This document shows positions 16,947 to 22,764 of a stretch of DNA of 64,000 nucleotides, one piece after another. The notes below the pieces were generated by a model. It made no database searches. It was not told the origin of the DNA and saw only the letters and a program-made list of their open reading frames with translations. How positions within the stretch are numbered: position 1 is the stretch's first letter; every line of letters starts with the position of its first letter. Location of the stretch: the NCBI RefSeq assembly GCF_016597785.1, contig NZ_JAENJG010000002.1, positions 372,001 to 436,000 of the forward strand. Direction: 5' to 3'. A program made the translations under genes and the position numbers. The stretch comes from Leucobacter sp. L43. Its GTDB lineage: Bacteria > Actinomycetota > Actinomycetes > Actinomycetales > Microbacteriaceae.

Positions 16947-18266
16947 ATGAATGGTTATCGTGACCTCCGCATCGGGTTGCTCGGCTGCGGCTCGGTCGGC
17001 GCACAGGTGGCCCGGCTGATCCTGGAACACGGAGACGAGCTGGCCGCGCGCATCGGGGCGCGTCTGACGCTCGCAGGCATCGCGGTCCGCAACGTCGACG
17101 CGCCGCGCGATGTCGAGCTGCCGAGGGAGCTGTTCACGACCGACGCCGAACGTCTCGTCCAGGGCTCCGATATCGTCATCGAGCTCATGGGCGGCATCGA
17201 ACCGGCCCGCACGCTGATCACGCAGGCACTGCAGGGCGGCGCCGACGTCGTCACCGCGAACAAGGCGCTCATCGCGGCGCACGGTCCCGAGCTCTCGGAA
17301 GCGGCGGAACAGGTCGGCGCACAGCTCTCGTACGAGGCGGCCGTCGCCGCGGCGATCCCGATCCTGCGCCCTCTGCGCGAAAGCCTGGCCGGTGACCACA
17401 TCACCCGCGTGCTCGGGATCGTGAACGGCTCGACCAATTACATCCTCGACCGCATGGACCGATTCGGCGACAGCGCCGAAGACGCATCGCGGGTGGCGAG
17501 CGAACTGGGCTTCCTCGAAGCCGATCCGACCCTCGACGTCGAGGGCTACGACGCCGCGCAGAAAGCGACCATCCTCGCGAGCATCGCCTTCCACACCGAG
17601 GTGCCCGTCGACGCGGTGCACCGAGAGGGCATCACGCAGATCACGGCGGAGCAGATCGAAGCGGCGAAGAGCGCTGGGTACGTCATCAAGCTCCTCGCGA
17701 TCGCCGAGCGGTTGCAGGCCGCTGACGGCACCGACGGAGTCTCGGCGCGCGTCTACCCCGCGCTGATCCGCCGCGACCACCCGCTCGCAGCGGTGCACGA
17801 GGGCAAGAACGCCGTGTTCGTCGAGGCGGAGGCCGCCGGCGAGTTGATGTTCTACGGCGCCGGAGCCGGCGGAGCGGAAACCGCTTCGGCGGTGCTCGGA
17901 GACCTCGTCTCCGCAGCGCGCAGGCACGTCGTCGGCGGCCCGGGCATTCCGGGGTCGCTGCATGCCGAGCTGCCGATCCTTCCCGTCGGCGAAGTGATGA
18001 CGGCTTACCAGATCATGCTCGAAGTGCGCGACCAGCCAGGCGTGCTCGCGAGCATCGCGGGCATCCTCGCCGAGCGGGGAGTATCTGCCGCGAGCGTCGA
18101 GCAGACCGTCGCTCGAGGCGGGGCAGGCGACGAGCCGAGCGCGGCTCTGGTCATCGGCACGCACCGCGCGCGCGAAGCCGATCTCGCTGCGACGGTCGAA
18201 GCCCTGCGGGCCGCCGAGGTCGTCACCGCCGTGACGAGCGTGCTGCGCCTCGAGGGTCAGGCGTGA
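16947..18266 (+). CDS. hom: homoserine dehydrogenase
   Basis: 439 residues, the normal length for the form with a regulatory ACT domain. It reduces aspartate semialdehyde to homoserine with NAD(P)H. The Rossmann motif LLGCGSVGAQVARL is near residue 10, NGSTNYILD and GYDAAQKATILASIAFH mark the catalytic domain, and an ACT domain (VRDQPGVLASIAGILAERG) lies near residue 355, the usual site of threonine feedback. AAGGAG precedes the ATG. Overlaps thrB by 4 bases. Confidence 0.96.
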   Translation: MNGYRDLRIGLLGCGSVGAQVARLILEHGDELAARIGARLTLAGIAVRNVDAPRDVELPRELFTTDAERLVQGSDIVIELMGGIEPARTLITQALQGGADVVTANKALIAAHGPELSEAAEQVGAQLSYEAAVAAAIPILRPLRESLAGDHITRVLGIVNGSTNYILDRMDRFGDSAEDASRVASELGFLEADPTLDVEGYDAAQKATILASIAFHTEVPVDAVHREGITQITAEQIEAAKSAGYVIKLLAIAERLQAADGTDGVSARVYPALIRRDHPLAAVHEGKNAVFVEAEAAGELMFYGAGAGGAETASAVLGDLVSAARRHVVGGPGIPGSLHAELPILPVGEVMTAYQIMLEVRDQPGVLASIAGILAERGVSAASVEQTVARGGAGDEPSAALVIGTHRAREADLAATVEALRAAEVVTAVTSVLRLEGQA

Positions 18267-19219
18267 GCGCGACCGGCAGCGGGATCGGTCGCACCGTCAA
18301 GGTGCGCGTGCCCGCGACGAGCGCGAACCTGGGCCCCGGATTCGACACGCTCGGCATCGCGCTTGCGTACGGAGACGAGCTGACGGTCGTCGTGCGCGAC
18401 GCGCCCGGCGCGACCGTCGAGGTCACGGGCGTCGGAGCCGGCGAGGTTCCCACCGATGAGACGAACCTCGTGGTCCGTTCCGCCGCCCACGTCTTCGCGC
18501 AACTCGGACGCCGCATGCCCGGCATCGACGTCGCCGCCACGAACCGCATTCCGCACGGGCGCGGCATGGGATCCTCCGGATCGGCCATCGTCGCCGGCGT
18601 GATGATCGCCGCCGGCCTGCTGCAGAGCGACCCCGAAGCTCCTGTCGCGCTCACCGAGGAGCAGCTGCTCGCATTCGCGACCGAACTCGAGGGGCACCCC
18701 GACAATGTCGCACCCGCGCTGTTCGGCGGACTGACCATCGCGTGGACGACGGAGCAGGGCCCGCGCTTCAAACGGCTGATGGTGCACCGCGGCGTGGCGC
18801 CGCTCGTGCTCGTGCCGAGCTTCACCATGTCGACCGAGCTCGCTCGAAGCCTGCAGCCGAAGCAGGTGCCGCATGAGGACGCCGTCTTCAACGTCTCTCG
18901 GTCGGCGCTGCTCATCGCCGCACTCACGCAGAGCCCCGAACTCCTGCTCGAGGCGACCGAGGACCGGCTGCATCAGAACTATCGCGGTGCCGCCATGCCG
19001 GCCACGCGCGACCTCATCGGCGAGCTGCGCTCAGCGGGGCATGCAGCAGTGGTCTCCGGTGCCGGCCCGTCGGTGCTCGTGCTCTCGAACGGGCCGTTGG
19101 ATCGCATGCAGGCAGCGGATTTCGTGGCTGCCCATCACCCGGATTGGCGCGTGCTCACCCTGGCCGTCGATACCAAGGGTGCTACAGTTGAAACGACCCC
19201 TGCGGGAGCGGCGCTCTAG
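18263..19219 (+). CDS. thrB: homoserine kinase
   Basis: 318 residues of the GHMP kinase family. It phosphorylates homoserine on the way to threonine. The ATP-binding glycine-rich loop is IPHGRGMGSSGSAIVAG, preceded by the substrate segment PATSANLGPGFDTLG. It starts with GTG overlapping the hom stop (GTGA), so it is translationally coupled. thrC is not in this window. Confidence 0.95.
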   Translation: MSATGSGIGRTVKVRVPATSANLGPGFDTLGIALAYGDELTVVVRDAPGATVEVTGVGAGEVPTDETNLVVRSAAHVFAQLGRRMPGIDVAATNRIPHGRGMGSSGSAIVAGVMIAAGLLQSDPEAPVALTEEQLLAFATELEGHPDNVAPALFGGLTIAWTTEQGPRFKRLMVHRGVAPLVLVPSFTMSTELARSLQPKQVPHEDAVFNVSRSALLIAALTQSPELLLEATEDRLHQNYRGAAMPATRDLIGELRSAGHAAVVSGAGPSVLVLSNGPLDRMQAADFVAAHHPDWRVLTLAVDTKGATVETTPAGAAL

Positions 19220-19371
19220 CCTCGCCCGTCGATGTCCGCTCATGCGGAACCGTGGGTCGTTATCGCACCGTGAACACATCGCACGGTGATCCCGAAGCAC
19301 ACATGTGCACTACCGCGGGAATGCGCGCCCACTTGCGCGTGCAGTCCCGTCGGCGTTCCGAAAGGAAGAAC
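19220..19371 (+). promoter_or_regulatory. leader region of the rho-locus gene with an inverted repeat
   Basis: This 152-bp gap between thrB and the rho-locus start contains CACCGTG (19266-19272) and CACGGTG (19282-19288), able to form a 7-bp stem with a 9-nt loop. rho genes often have autoregulated leaders, so the stem may matter, but nothing here proves it. An ATG-led reading upstream in the same frame (19321) is possible; the GTG at 19372 has the better ribosome site. Confidence 0.3.
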
Positions 19372-21579
19372 GTGGAATCCAACGTTGAAGACAACACCAC
19401 TCCCGCACCCGAGGAAGCCGCCGCGCCGACGCGTCGCCGTGCTTCTCGTCGCGTGAGCGCCGCCGCTGGGGCTGCCGCTCCCGAGGCCGCTCCGGCTGCT
19501 GAGGCGCCCGCTGCAGCTCCGGCTGCCGAAGCGCCGGCTGCTGAGGCGCCGGCCCCTGACGCAGCGGAAGCACCCGCCGCCGCTGCGCCGAAGAAGCGCG
19601 CGACGCGCAGCCGGAAGAAGGTCGACGCGCCCGCCGATGCGACGGCGCAGGATCCGGCAGCCGAGTCGGATGCCACGGCAACGACTGCATCCTCGAGCAC
19701 CGAGGCGGGCGATGCATCGAGCGCGCCGGAAGAGCAGCCAGCTGCTGCTCCGAAGAAGCGCGCGACGCGCAGCCGCAAGAAGGCTGAAGCGCCCGCCGAG
19801 CCTGCGACCGCTGCATCTGCAGACGCGAATGCCTCCGCCGATGCCGCCGCTGCCGCGACTGACGCGGCTCCGGCGCAGTCGACCGATACGGCAGCCGAAG
19901 CTCCGACTCAGGAGGCTCCTGCCAAGCGCACGCGCAGCCGCCGGGCCTCGTCAGCGACGGCCGCGGCCCAGACCGCTGCAGCAGAGACGGGTACGGGGGA
20001 GACCGGCACGCCGGAATCGCACGAGGGCGCCGCGTCGAACGCCGATGCCGCTCAGAGCAACGGCCAGCAGGCCGATTCCTCGGAGCAGTCGGATCGCGGT
20101 GAGAAGTCGGATCGCGGTGAGAAGTCGGATCGCGGCGAGCAGTCGGATCGCGCTTCGGATCGCGGCGAGAAGTCGGAGAACTCCGACGGTGAGCGGTCGG
20201 GGCGCAACCGCCGCGGCCGCGGTCGAGGCCAGAAGAACGAGAACGCGGAGTCGAACGAGCAGACCGATGCTGCCGCCTCCTCTGACGACGAGGGCAAGCA
20301 GCGCGGTTCCGGTCAGAACGGCAACGGGCCGCAGAACGGCCAGAAGAACGGCGACGCGAAGAACGGCGACAACTCGAGCCGGTCGAGCCGCACCCGGCAG
20401 CGCGACCGCAAGCGTCGCGGTCAGGGCGACGACCTCGAGCCGGAGATCACCGAAGACGACGTGCTGCTGCCGATCGCGGGCATTCTCGACGTGCTCGACA
20501 ACTACGCGTTCGTGCGCACGAGCGGTTACCTCCCCGGCACGAGCGATGTCTACGTGTCGCTCGGGCAGGTCAAGAAGTACGGCCTGCGACGCGGCGACGC
20601 GGTGGTCGGAGCGATCCGTCAACCCCGTGACAACGACAGCGCGAGCCGTCAGAAGTACAACGCGATCGTGAAGATCGATACCGTCAATGGTCGACCGGTC
20701 GATGAGCAGCCGGAGGAGCGCGTCGACATCGCCGACCTCACGGCCATCTACCCCGAAGAGCGGCTGCGCTTCGAGACGACGCAGCAGGGCGTGCTCGGTC
20801 GTGCCATCGACCTCGTGGCACCGACCGGCCTGGGTCAGCGCGCAGCGCTCGTGCTTCCCGCGCACTCCGACGGCACCGCGGTGCTCGGCGAGCTCGCCGA
20901 GGCGATCAGCACGAACCGACCCGATGCGCACCTCGTGCTGCTGCTCGCGAATGCGCAGCCGGAGGAGATCACCCGGCTGCAGCGATCGGTGCGCGGTGAG
21001 GTCGTCGCCGCGAGCTTCGACCGCGGCGCCGAGGATCAGGCGATCATCGCCGAACTCGCGATCGATCGTGCGAAGCGACTCGTCGAACTCGGCCACGACG
21101 TCGTCGTACTCGTCGACTCGTTGAACCGATTCGCGCGTGCCTACGCTCAGGCCCAGCACGCGCAGAGCCGCCCGGCTCTGGACGAGATCGACGAGCTCGC
21201 ACTCGCCCAGATCAAGCGTCTGCTCGCCTCGGCTCGCAACGTGGAGAACGGCGGCTCGCTCACCGTGCTCGCGACGGTGCACTCGAAGACCGGTCTCGCA
21301 GCCGACAAGCTGCTGCTGCGCGAGGTGCGCGCAGTCGTCAACAGCGAGGTGCGATTCGCGAAGTCGGCCGCCGGCCTTCCTCCGGTCGTCAAGCTCGCCG
21401 CGTCGCGTACGCGCAACCCCGAGTCGGTACTCGGTGCTGATGAGACGGCGGCGCTGGCAACGCTTCGCGCGGATCTCGGTTCCGACGGCGCGGAGGAACG
21501 ACTCCGCGAGCGCCTGAGCGCGACGGCGTCGAACGCCGCGCTTCTCGCAGAGGTGCAGCGTTCGGGCGGTCTGGCCTAG
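19372..21579 (+). CDS. rho: Rho-like protein with degenerate ATPase motifs
   Basis: 735 residues from the GTG at 19372 (AAAGGAAG upstream). Residues 1-355 are a disordered Ala/Pro/Glu then Asp/Arg/Lys/Asn-rich extension, common in actinobacterial Rho. The cold-shock RNA-binding domain (about 360-435: GYLPGTSDVYVSLGQVKKYG) is well conserved. The motor core aligns throughout, yet its key residues are gone. The P-loop normally PPKAGKT reads PAHSDGT (496-502). DERPEE reads NAQPEE, losing the catalytic Glu (Ala528). The Q-loop SGGVD segment is replaced by RPALDEIDEL, and the arginine finger aligns with Lys. The Walker B Asp582 remains. The frame is intact, so it is unlikely to be a pseudogene. It probably binds RNA without ATP-driven translocation. 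Confidence 0.9.
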   Translation: MESNVEDNTTPAPEEAAAPTRRRASRRVSAAAGAAAPEAAPAAEAPAAAPAAEAPAAEAPAPDAAEAPAAAAPKKRATRSRKKVDAPADATAQDPAAESDATATTASSSTEAGDASSAPEEQPAAAPKKRATRSRKKAEAPAEPATAASADANASADAAAAATDAAPAQSTDTAAEAPTQEAPAKRTRSRRASSATAAAQTAAAETGTGETGTPESHEGAASNADAAQSNGQQADSSEQSDRGEKSDRGEKSDRGEQSDRASDRGEKSENSDGERSGRNRRGRGRGQKNENAESNEQTDAAASSDDEGKQRGSGQNGNGPQNGQKNGDAKNGDNSSRSSRTRQRDRKRRGQGDDLEPEITEDDVLLPIAGILDVLDNYAFVRTSGYLPGTSDVYVSLGQVKKYGLRRGDAVVGAIRQPRDNDSASRQKYNAIVKIDTVNGRPVDEQPEERVDIADLTAIYPEERLRFETTQQGVLGRAIDLVAPTGLGQRAALVLPAHSDGTAVLGELAEAISTNRPDAHLVLLLANAQPEEITRLQRSVRGEVVAASFDRGAEDQAIIAELAIDRAKRLVELGHDVVVLVDSLNRFARAYAQAQHAQSRPALDEIDELALAQIKRLLASARNVENGGSLTVLATVHSKTGLAADKLLLREVRAVVNSEVRFAKSAAGLPPVVKLAASRTRNPESVLGADETAALATLRADLGSDGAEERLRERLSATASNAALLAEVQRSGGLA
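20089..20172 (+). repeat. 18-bp tandem repeats encoding SDRGEK units in the Rho-like N-terminal extension
   Basis: TCGGATCGCGGTGAGAAG occurs at 20089-20106 and 20107-20124, a near copy at 20125-20142, a 12-base partial at 20143-20154, and another near copy at 20155-20172. They encode SDRGEK/SDRGEQ units. The near-identity at DNA level suggests recent expansion by slippage. Two longer copies of PKKRATRSRKK lie farther upstream in the same extension. Confidence 0.85.
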
Positions 21580-21687: not shown

Positions 21688-22764
21688 ATGTTCGAACAGG
21701 TCGAAGGGCTGATCGCGGAGCACGCGCGGCTGCAGGAAGAACTCGCGGATCCCGCACTGCACGCAGACGCGTCGCGTGCGAAGAAGGTCAATCGGCGATA
21801 CGCCGAGCTCAGCAAGATCAAATCGGCTCACGAGCACTGGCAGCAGGTGGGCGACGACCTCGAGGCGGCGCGCGAGCTCGCGAAAGAAGATGAGGCGTTC
21901 GCCGAGGAGGTCCCGGAGCTCGAGGCCAGCCTGGCGGAGGCTCAGGAGCGCGTGCGGCGCCTGCTCATTCCGCGCGACCCCGACGACGCCAGAGACGTCA
22001 TCCTCGAGATCAAGGGCGGCGAAGGCGGCGCCGAGTCGGCCCTCTTCGGCGCCGACCTGCTGCGCATGTACATGCACTACGCGGAGTCCAAGGGCTGGAA
22101 GACGGAGATGATCGAGGCCGACGAGAGCGACCTCGGCGGGTACAAGAACGTGCAGATCGCCATCAAGGCGAACGCGGCGGATCCATCGCAGGGCGCCTGG
22201 GCGCACCTCAAGTACGAGGGAGGCGTGCACCGCGTGCAGCGCGTTCCCGTGACCGAATCGCAGGGGCGCATCCATACGTCGACGACCGGTGTGCTCGTGT
22301 ACCCCGAAGTGGACGAGCCGGAGGAGGTCGGGATCAACCAGAACGATCTCAAGATCGACGTGTACCGGTCGTCGGGCCCCGGCGGTCAGTCGGTGAACAC
22401 GACCGATTCGGCCGTGCGCATCACGCACCTCCCGACGGGCATCGTCGTGGCGATGCAGAACGAGAAGAGCCAGTTGCAGAACCGCGAGGCCGCGATGCGC
22501 GTGCTGCGAGCGCGACTGCTCGCGCGTCAGCAGGAGGAGGCCGCGGCAGAGGCCAGCGCGCACCGGTCGAGCCAGATCCGCACGATGGATCGGTCGGAGC
22601 GCATCCGCACGTACAACTTCCCCGAGAACCGCATCGCCGACCATCGCACCGGATACAAGGCCTACAACCTCGACCACGTGATGAACGGCGCGCTCGACGC
22701 CGTCATCGAGTCGTGCATCCGTGCCGATGAGGAGGCGCGCCTGGCCGACCTCGGACAGGAGTAG
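21688..22764 (+). CDS. prfA: peptide chain release factor 1
   Basis: 358 residues. It reads UAA and UAG stop codons and triggers peptide release. The codon-reading tripeptide is PVT (187-189, [10 protein letters not shown]), the release-factor 1 pattern, and the catalytic GGQ is at 232-234 ([15 protein letters not shown]). AGGAAG precedes the ATG. Its usual partner prmC, which methylates the GGQ glutamine, lies about 4 kb downstream, separated by inserted genes. Confidence 0.97.

Follow-up and report, generated by a model that had tools for sequence, protein, structure and literature searches.

A question of long standing is whether transcription is brought to an end by the motor of the termination factor Rho or in part by its binding and allostery. 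The rho gene of Leucobacter sp. L43 raises this question directly, as here the motor has been removed by nature, the RNA-binding half has been kept, and the gene is the only Rho found in most of the Leucobacter examined. The gene lies in a stretch of 64,000 nucleotides (the window; positions 372,001 to 436,000 of the forward strand of contig NZ_JAENJG010000002.1, assembly GCF_016597785.1). An earlier reading of the sequence alone had proposed a pseudo-Rho that lacks the ATPase and translocase residues and keeps the RNA-binding domain. The analyses described below support this proposal, and the loss of motor residues is both real and larger than first noted. Loss of the Rho motor is nearly certain, while the present function of the protein is something that we infer.

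The motifs were read against M. tuberculosis Rho and 96 intact Rho cores, comprising 22 from the other families of the order and 74 named records, one of which (L129) has PHESGKS, a type also present in some Leucobacter. Which residues serve as catalytic Glu, Arg valve, Arg finger, Walker Lys and R-loop Lys was taken from PMC8828861. Residues are numbered in the longest rho frame, which begins at 19252, ends at 21579 on the plus strand and holds 775 codons; subtraction of 40 gives the numbering of the 735-codon frame from 19372, which is open throughout, as the sequence-only reading had it. Alignment to M. tuberculosis Rho confirmed that the P-loop PPKAGKT has become PAHSDGT (496-502 in the 735-codon numbering), with Gly541 at the position of the Walker Lys and Thr542 at that of the Walker Thr. 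The change of DERPEE to NAQPEE, by which the catalytic Glu became Ala528 (Ala568 in our numbering), and the replacement of the Q-loop stretch were likewise borne out. Two further losses had not been listed, namely that of the Arg valve (R to Q569) and that of the R-loop Lys (to A683). When scored by the columns invariant in intact Rho, the protein matched 2/7 in the P-loop, 0/4 in the catalytic segment, 4/13 in the Q-region and 2/6 in the R-loop. Retention of the RNA-binding domain, also claimed earlier, was evident from 29/29 matched columns and from the profile search, in which PF07497 (the Rho RNA-binding domain) covered residues 409-483 with 86 bits. The Walker B Asp (Asp622) is kept, as had been stated, but the Arg finger was not aligned with Lys; Arg721 occupies this position when set against M. 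tuberculosis Rho and the 96 intact Rho. Many of the hexamer-motor residues have thus been lost, but with Arg721 and Asp622 present the claim that all of them are gone was overstated. Two close relatives (G016 and G023, 91% and 90% identical in the core) share the same losses, and because they are separate genomes these losses are neither chance nor assembly error.

The suggestion that this might be the only Rho of the genome held when a second rho was sought by profile search. The source genome is 99.86% complete in 3 contigs; TIGR00767 matched the rho locus and one ATP-synthase-like place, PF00006 the rho locus and two such places, the places other than rho being ATP synthase subunits by our reading, and neither search found a hidden second Rho in this genome. 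At the rho locus itself PF00006 matched residues 517-681 with 45 bits, and TIGR00767, the NCBIfam Rho equivalog, scored 330.4 bits, below its curated cut-off of 509.45. All further Rho matches in related Leucobacter genomes were at E 3e-10 or weaker.

The loss extends through much of the genus. A set of 37 Leucobacter genomes, 36 with rho, together with three from a sample of the family, gave 39 Rho with a readable P-loop, of which 31 lack GK[ST] (the motorless group) and 8 keep it. In every one of the 31 the catalytic Glu position is Ala, in contrast to Glu in 96/96 intact Rho, and the Walker Lys position is Gly (20) or Ala (11). The Walker B Asp is kept in 31/31 and the Arg finger in 14/31. 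Across the group 28/29 intact-invariant columns of the RNA-binding domain are retained, against 1/7 for the P-loop, 0/4 for the catalytic segment, 1/13 for the Q-loop region and 1/6 for the R-loop. Other substitutions are fixed in all 31, namely Ser587 to Ala, Phe658 to Leu, Ile688 and Phe689 to Leu, and Glu690 to Arg. Nine of the 31 are also short at the C-terminus, and the rho match of G005 carries one in-frame TAG, so that the C-terminal end seems to have been lost recently in that species. Among the best 120 database clusters for the query, 28 lacked GK[ST] and had Ala at the Glu position, 91 had GK[ST] and Glu, and one lacked GK[ST] and yet had Glu. The low Rho scores of G098 and G115 were rejected as losses, both having intact genes split over contigs, and the two were excluded from the column counts. 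No Rho was found in G002 (72% complete) and G093 (420 contigs), and neither was counted as a loss. The flanking genes, which we take to be thrB and prfA from the usual gene order, keep the order thrB-rho-prfA in 34/36 Leucobacter loci fetched; in the remaining two loci the contig stops short of thrB.

The sequence-only reading missed that the loss is graded across the genus and occurs in other lineages too, and that some species with a retained ATP site already have an eroded RNA channel. The Walker Lys and the catalytic Glu are present in 8/8 of the GK[ST]-keeping Leucobacter Rho. Two of these (G018 and G021) are near intact, with 8 and 9/13 columns of the Q-region, 5/6 of the R-loop and 8 and 7/10 of the GTGN motif. 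The other six match 4-7/13, 1-5/6 and 1-5/10 columns respectively, and their P-loop is altered outside GK[ST] (3 or 4/7 columns). Judged from these residues, the RNA channel is already eroded in 6/8 Leucobacter that keep the ATP site. Genus g48 is similar, with GKS and Glu in 6/6 and only 4-6/13 columns of the Q-region. The Walker Lys and Glu were seen together with an eroded Q-region and GTGN motif in g48 (L077, L078, L080-L083) and also in L041, L044, L045, L056, L059 and L084. Such g48 and Leucobacter proteins are possible ATP-binding, poorly translocating intermediates. With the channel eroded while the ATP site is kept, this order suggests that translocation of RNA through the ring was abandoned first and that loss of the Walker Lys and catalytic Glu followed. 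In the Q-region (residues 634-655) the mean net charge falls from +0.99 in intact Rho through +0.50 to -1.03 in motorless Rho, and a negative charge here would be expected to disfavour RNA in the channel.

Beyond Leucobacter, 266/299 genomes of the family sample scored above the Rho cut-off. The Walker Lys and catalytic Glu are absent in 5/5 genomes each of genera g27 and g82. The Rho of one g27 member is identical to a protein of Canibacter zhoujuaniae; g82 is a small-genome lineage whose few named relatives are labelled freshwater metagenome, Microbacteriaceae or Actinomycetota bacterium. The 91 clusters nearest g82 represent a freshwater Microbacteriaceae clade (P0121-P0211; L093, L096-L099), which has a short motorless Rho of ~410 amino acids with conserved replacement sequence; in 91/91 of these clusters Arg stands at the Walker Lys and at the R578 position, and Gly at the catalytic Glu. 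Partly eroded Rho was seen in g34, g37 and g45, one genome each; these are weaker cases of motor loss, as the catalytic Glu survives in g45 and GKT, after a deletion, in g37. A quick thrB+prfA tree with 86 rows (another row, too short, was omitted) gave the motorless Leucobacter clade a support of 90 (not starred), and parsimony on it required 6 changes. A single origin of all motor losses was rejected on this count, yet a common origin of the motorless Leucobacter and g27 as one clade was not rejected by an approximately unbiased (AU) test (p 0.537). Of 248 Actinomycetota genomes sampled, 209 were above the Rho cut-off and 21 had no match at E 1e-40. Seventeen weak Rho from this phylum were read (L292-L308), and the Walker Lys, often replaced by Arg, is absent in 12 of them (f24 1/1, f46 5/5, f49 5/5, f58 1/5) and kept in one of f72 and four of f58. 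The catalytic Glu is still present in 9/17, including 4/5 of f49, so these nine are eroded in other ways. The Q-loop is missing from the alignments of f49 and f58 Rho. Six further genomes (two of f37, two of f61, one of f73 and one of f68) were searched again and gave no match of Rho length.

The domain that has lost its motor residues, here called the dead domain, is under purifying selection, with omega of 0.03-0.37 in 32 chosen motorless pairs and of 0.04-0.10 in two C-truncated groups. In 31/32 chosen pairs it exceeds the omega of prfA, so the constraint is weaker than that on prfA. Selection and synteny indicate a functioning rho gene. The predicted model keeps the Rho fold including the RecA-like domain, with the RNA-binding part at low confidence, and its best match among solved structures is M. 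tuberculosis Rho (7oqh; 41% identity over 353 residues), a poor NTPase and helicase (PMC8828861). Catalytic motifs lost, a fold kept in prediction and purifying selection together have the marks of a pseudoenzyme. As evolution preserves Rho without its motor parts, the Leucobacter protein probably works without a motor.

We favour, at a probability of roughly 0.55, a motorless and RNA-tethered Rho that acts without translocation as a modulator of elongation or termination. This choice draws on the kept RNA-binding parts, the large loss of the parts that use ATP and pull RNA, the lack of any other Rho in the searches, a kept helix at residues 570-584 and the published contacts of Rho with RNA polymerase (RNAP) and NusG. 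The protein would bind nascent RNA through its primary sites and would be tethered to elongation complexes, on which it probably acts, by surfaces that intact Rho also uses, that is, by its N-terminal domain to RNAP, NusA and NusG, while helix 570-584 would contact the KOW domain of NusG. The RNA would be neither threaded nor pulled, making the protein a roadblock or an agent of allosteric stalling and not a helicase. E. coli Rho can engage elongation complexes ahead of transcript binding, by way of N-terminal domains in contact with NusA, NusG and RNAP, and it can then stall RNAP together with the two Nus factors (PMC11018626); the NusG KOW domain binds the Rho C-terminal domain (PMC7819879). 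In the helix that follows the catalytic Glu, Pro570, Glu571, Thr574, Arg578, Gly582 and Glu583 are present in all 31 motorless Leucobacter, five g27 and five g82. Arg578 corresponds by alignment to E. coli Arg221, and a strain list pairs nusG-G146D with rho-R221C (PMC1950744). This pairing may mark a link to NusG.

Several points weigh against this reading. The helix is conserved only moderately above its surroundings, with 7/11 columns kept in at least 90% of rows against 51/130 for the ATPase domain, and the needs of the fold may explain why its residues persist. Of the 17 weak Rho of other Actinomycetota families, just 7 have Arg at the R578 position (f24 1/1, f72 1/1, f46 3/5, f49 1/5, f58 1/5). 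The NusG KOW differs little between motorless and motor-bearing Leucobacter, but as KOW also binds S10 (PMC7819879) this likeness is uninformative, and KOW has diverged in motorless G119 (g82) and G139 (g27). In addition, E. coli mutants of the Q-loop and of the primary site could not be restored in termination (PMC1950744), and M. tuberculosis Rho, which unlike Leucobacter Rho keeps its catalytic residues (PMC8828861), requires a competent ATP site, its action without a motor having been proposed and then disputed (PMC4499133). A bolder form of the proposal is that motorless Rho might terminate or silence Leucobacter transcription without ATP hydrolysis, through RNA tethering and allosteric stalling of RNAP; it would then be a natural separation of allosteric from translocase action, arrived at repeatedly within Actinomycetota and common among the bacterioplankton of fresh water. 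We offer this form tentatively and consider it improbable.

The strongest alternative, which we regard as possible but unlikely, is that the protein is a relic on its way to loss, with some RNA-binding, chaperone or condensate role left to it apart from termination, transcription being ended by other means. The RNA-binding domain and the long low-complexity tail would form the basis of such a role. The graded erosion within the genus, the C-terminally short proteins, the eroded Rho and the missing matches in other Actinomycetota, and the weaker constraint relative to prfA are all consistent with it. However, the dead domain is still constrained, with omega no higher than 0.37 in any chosen pair and low values even in the C-truncated groups, and A568, A587, L658 and R690 are fixed in 31/31, which is unlike plain decay, although common descent explains part of this. 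It is very improbable that the protein remains an ATP-driven motor whose nucleotide site is unusual. Asp622, R721 and Thr542 could be cited for such a motor, but in 31/31 motorless Leucobacter the Walker Lys has been replaced by Gly or Ala and the catalytic Glu by Ala, most residues of the Q- and R-loops are gone and the Arg finger is found in fewer than half. Nothing was found in favour of an error in sequencing or assembly or of a dead pseudogene, and either is extremely improbable given losses of one class in 31 genomes, the long open frames, the purifying selection and the sequence type shared with close relatives.

If the motor is gone, transcription in this lineage may fairly be supposed to end without Rho helicase, as the sequence-only reading had suggested, but no switch to canonical intrinsic terminators was visible in the regions sampled. 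These comprised 200 kb from each of eight genomes, the source genome on one contig only, in which genes were called with a simple home-made gene finder. U-tract intrinsic terminators were found at 0/145 gene ends in the source genome, 1/151 in G017 and 7/165 in G003 (C-truncated Rho, lower GC content), at 0/158 and 0/144 in G011 and G021, which keep the ATP site, and at 3/145, 0/151 and 4/162 in genomes with intact Rho; shuffled and reverse-strand controls gave 0 to 4 matches per genome. Compensation by U-tract terminators was therefore rejected for these samples, the terminators being no commoner in the source genome than in the other seven. Canonical U-tract terminators were nearly absent at the gene ends of all eight Microbacteriaceae sampled (L212-L291), whatever the state of Rho. 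In each of the eight genomes the best hairpin at convergent and at well-spaced codirectional ends was lower in energy than in dinucleotide shuffles, irrespective of Rho state, and the purine bias of coding sequence, taken as a footprint of Rho, had no relation to Rho state in the same genomes. RNase HI was not expanded (a match in 29/30 genomes, single in 28), and no altered NusG KOW was seen within Leucobacter among 30 aligned NusG. The one genome of the freshwater clade included, G119, gave no RNase HI match. Absence of Rho is already known from some bacteria, among them cyanobacteria, and in one cyanobacterium, which has no Rho, intrinsic termination fits a minority of the transcript ends (PMC13289151).

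Rho proteins with insertions are known. Leucobacter Rho differs from the Rho of TIGR00767, as in E. coli and M. tuberculosis, in lacking the Walker Lys, catalytic Glu and Arg valve and in scoring below the cut-off. It matches NF041509 (Rho2, a short-form paralog) at 316 bits, but this is far below the cut-off of 628, and no second Rho was found in this Leucobacter genome. Allosteric or stand-by models give the contacts of the N-terminal domain with RNAP and Nus factors a role without early translocation (PMC11018626, PMC9908020); they concern, however, motor-competent E. coli Rho, in which the final stage of termination is still proposed to depend on ring closure and translocation. In the literature covered, which left out most subscription papers and the surveys D'Heygere 2013 and Moreira 2024, we found no description of a motorless Rho or of Rho in Leucobacter. 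A sole Rho whose motor is lost and whose gene is under selection thus seems undescribed, although these two surveys may touch on such cases. With close sister species still in possession of the ATP site, the question of the motor can be tested by comparison of species. The named Leucobacter entries include L. chromiiresistens, L. chromiireducens, L. massiliensis, L. insecticola and L. viscericola, and most are annotated 'transcription termination factor Rho' in the source records. With motorless proteins so annotated, inferences about Rho, and the action of the Rho-targeted antibiotic bicyclomycin, may not hold in these bacteria.

The coordinates of the features are collected in Table 1. For G016 and G023, whose rho frames run open over 1111 and 1193 codons, the start of rho and the length of the low-complexity tail are unsure.

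Table 1. Features of the rho locus of Leucobacter sp. L43, in positions of the window and residues of the 775-codon frame.
Feature	Position	Strand	Basis
Motorless Rho gene	19372..21579	+	735 codons from possible GTG start at 19372; PF07497 86 bits; TIGR00767 330 bits; only Rho found
Primary RNA-binding domain, near-invariant	20455..20694	+	Residues 402-481; PF07497; column counts
Former Walker A / P-loop PAHSDGT	20857..20877	+	Residues 536-542; PPKAGKT in M. tuberculosis Rho by alignment
Former catalytic Glu and Arg valve, N567 A568 Q569 (D E R in intact Rho)	20950..20958	+	Alignment
Retained helix region PEEITRLQRSVRGEV, proposed NusG-facing surface	20959..21003	+	Residues 570-584; R578 kept in motorless Microbacteriaceae examined; NusG role putative
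Walker B strand VVVLVDS, Asp622 kept	21100..21120	+	Alignment
Former Q-loop region, largely rewritten	21151..21210	+	Residues 634-653; column counts
Former R-loop	21277..21303	+	Residues 676-684; R-loop Lys to A683
E690 to R, fixed	21319..21321	+	Arg in 31/31 motorless Leucobacter, Glu in 95/96 intact Rho
Arg finger R721, still present	21412..21414	+	Alignment to M. tuberculosis Rho and 96 intact Rho
Long low-complexity N-terminal extension, presumably disordered	19372..20412	+	Residues 41-387; judged from the sequence
thrB (homoserine kinase), upstream neighbour	18263..19219	+	Position; presumed gene name
prfA (release factor 1), downstream neighbour	21688..22764	+	Position; presumed gene name
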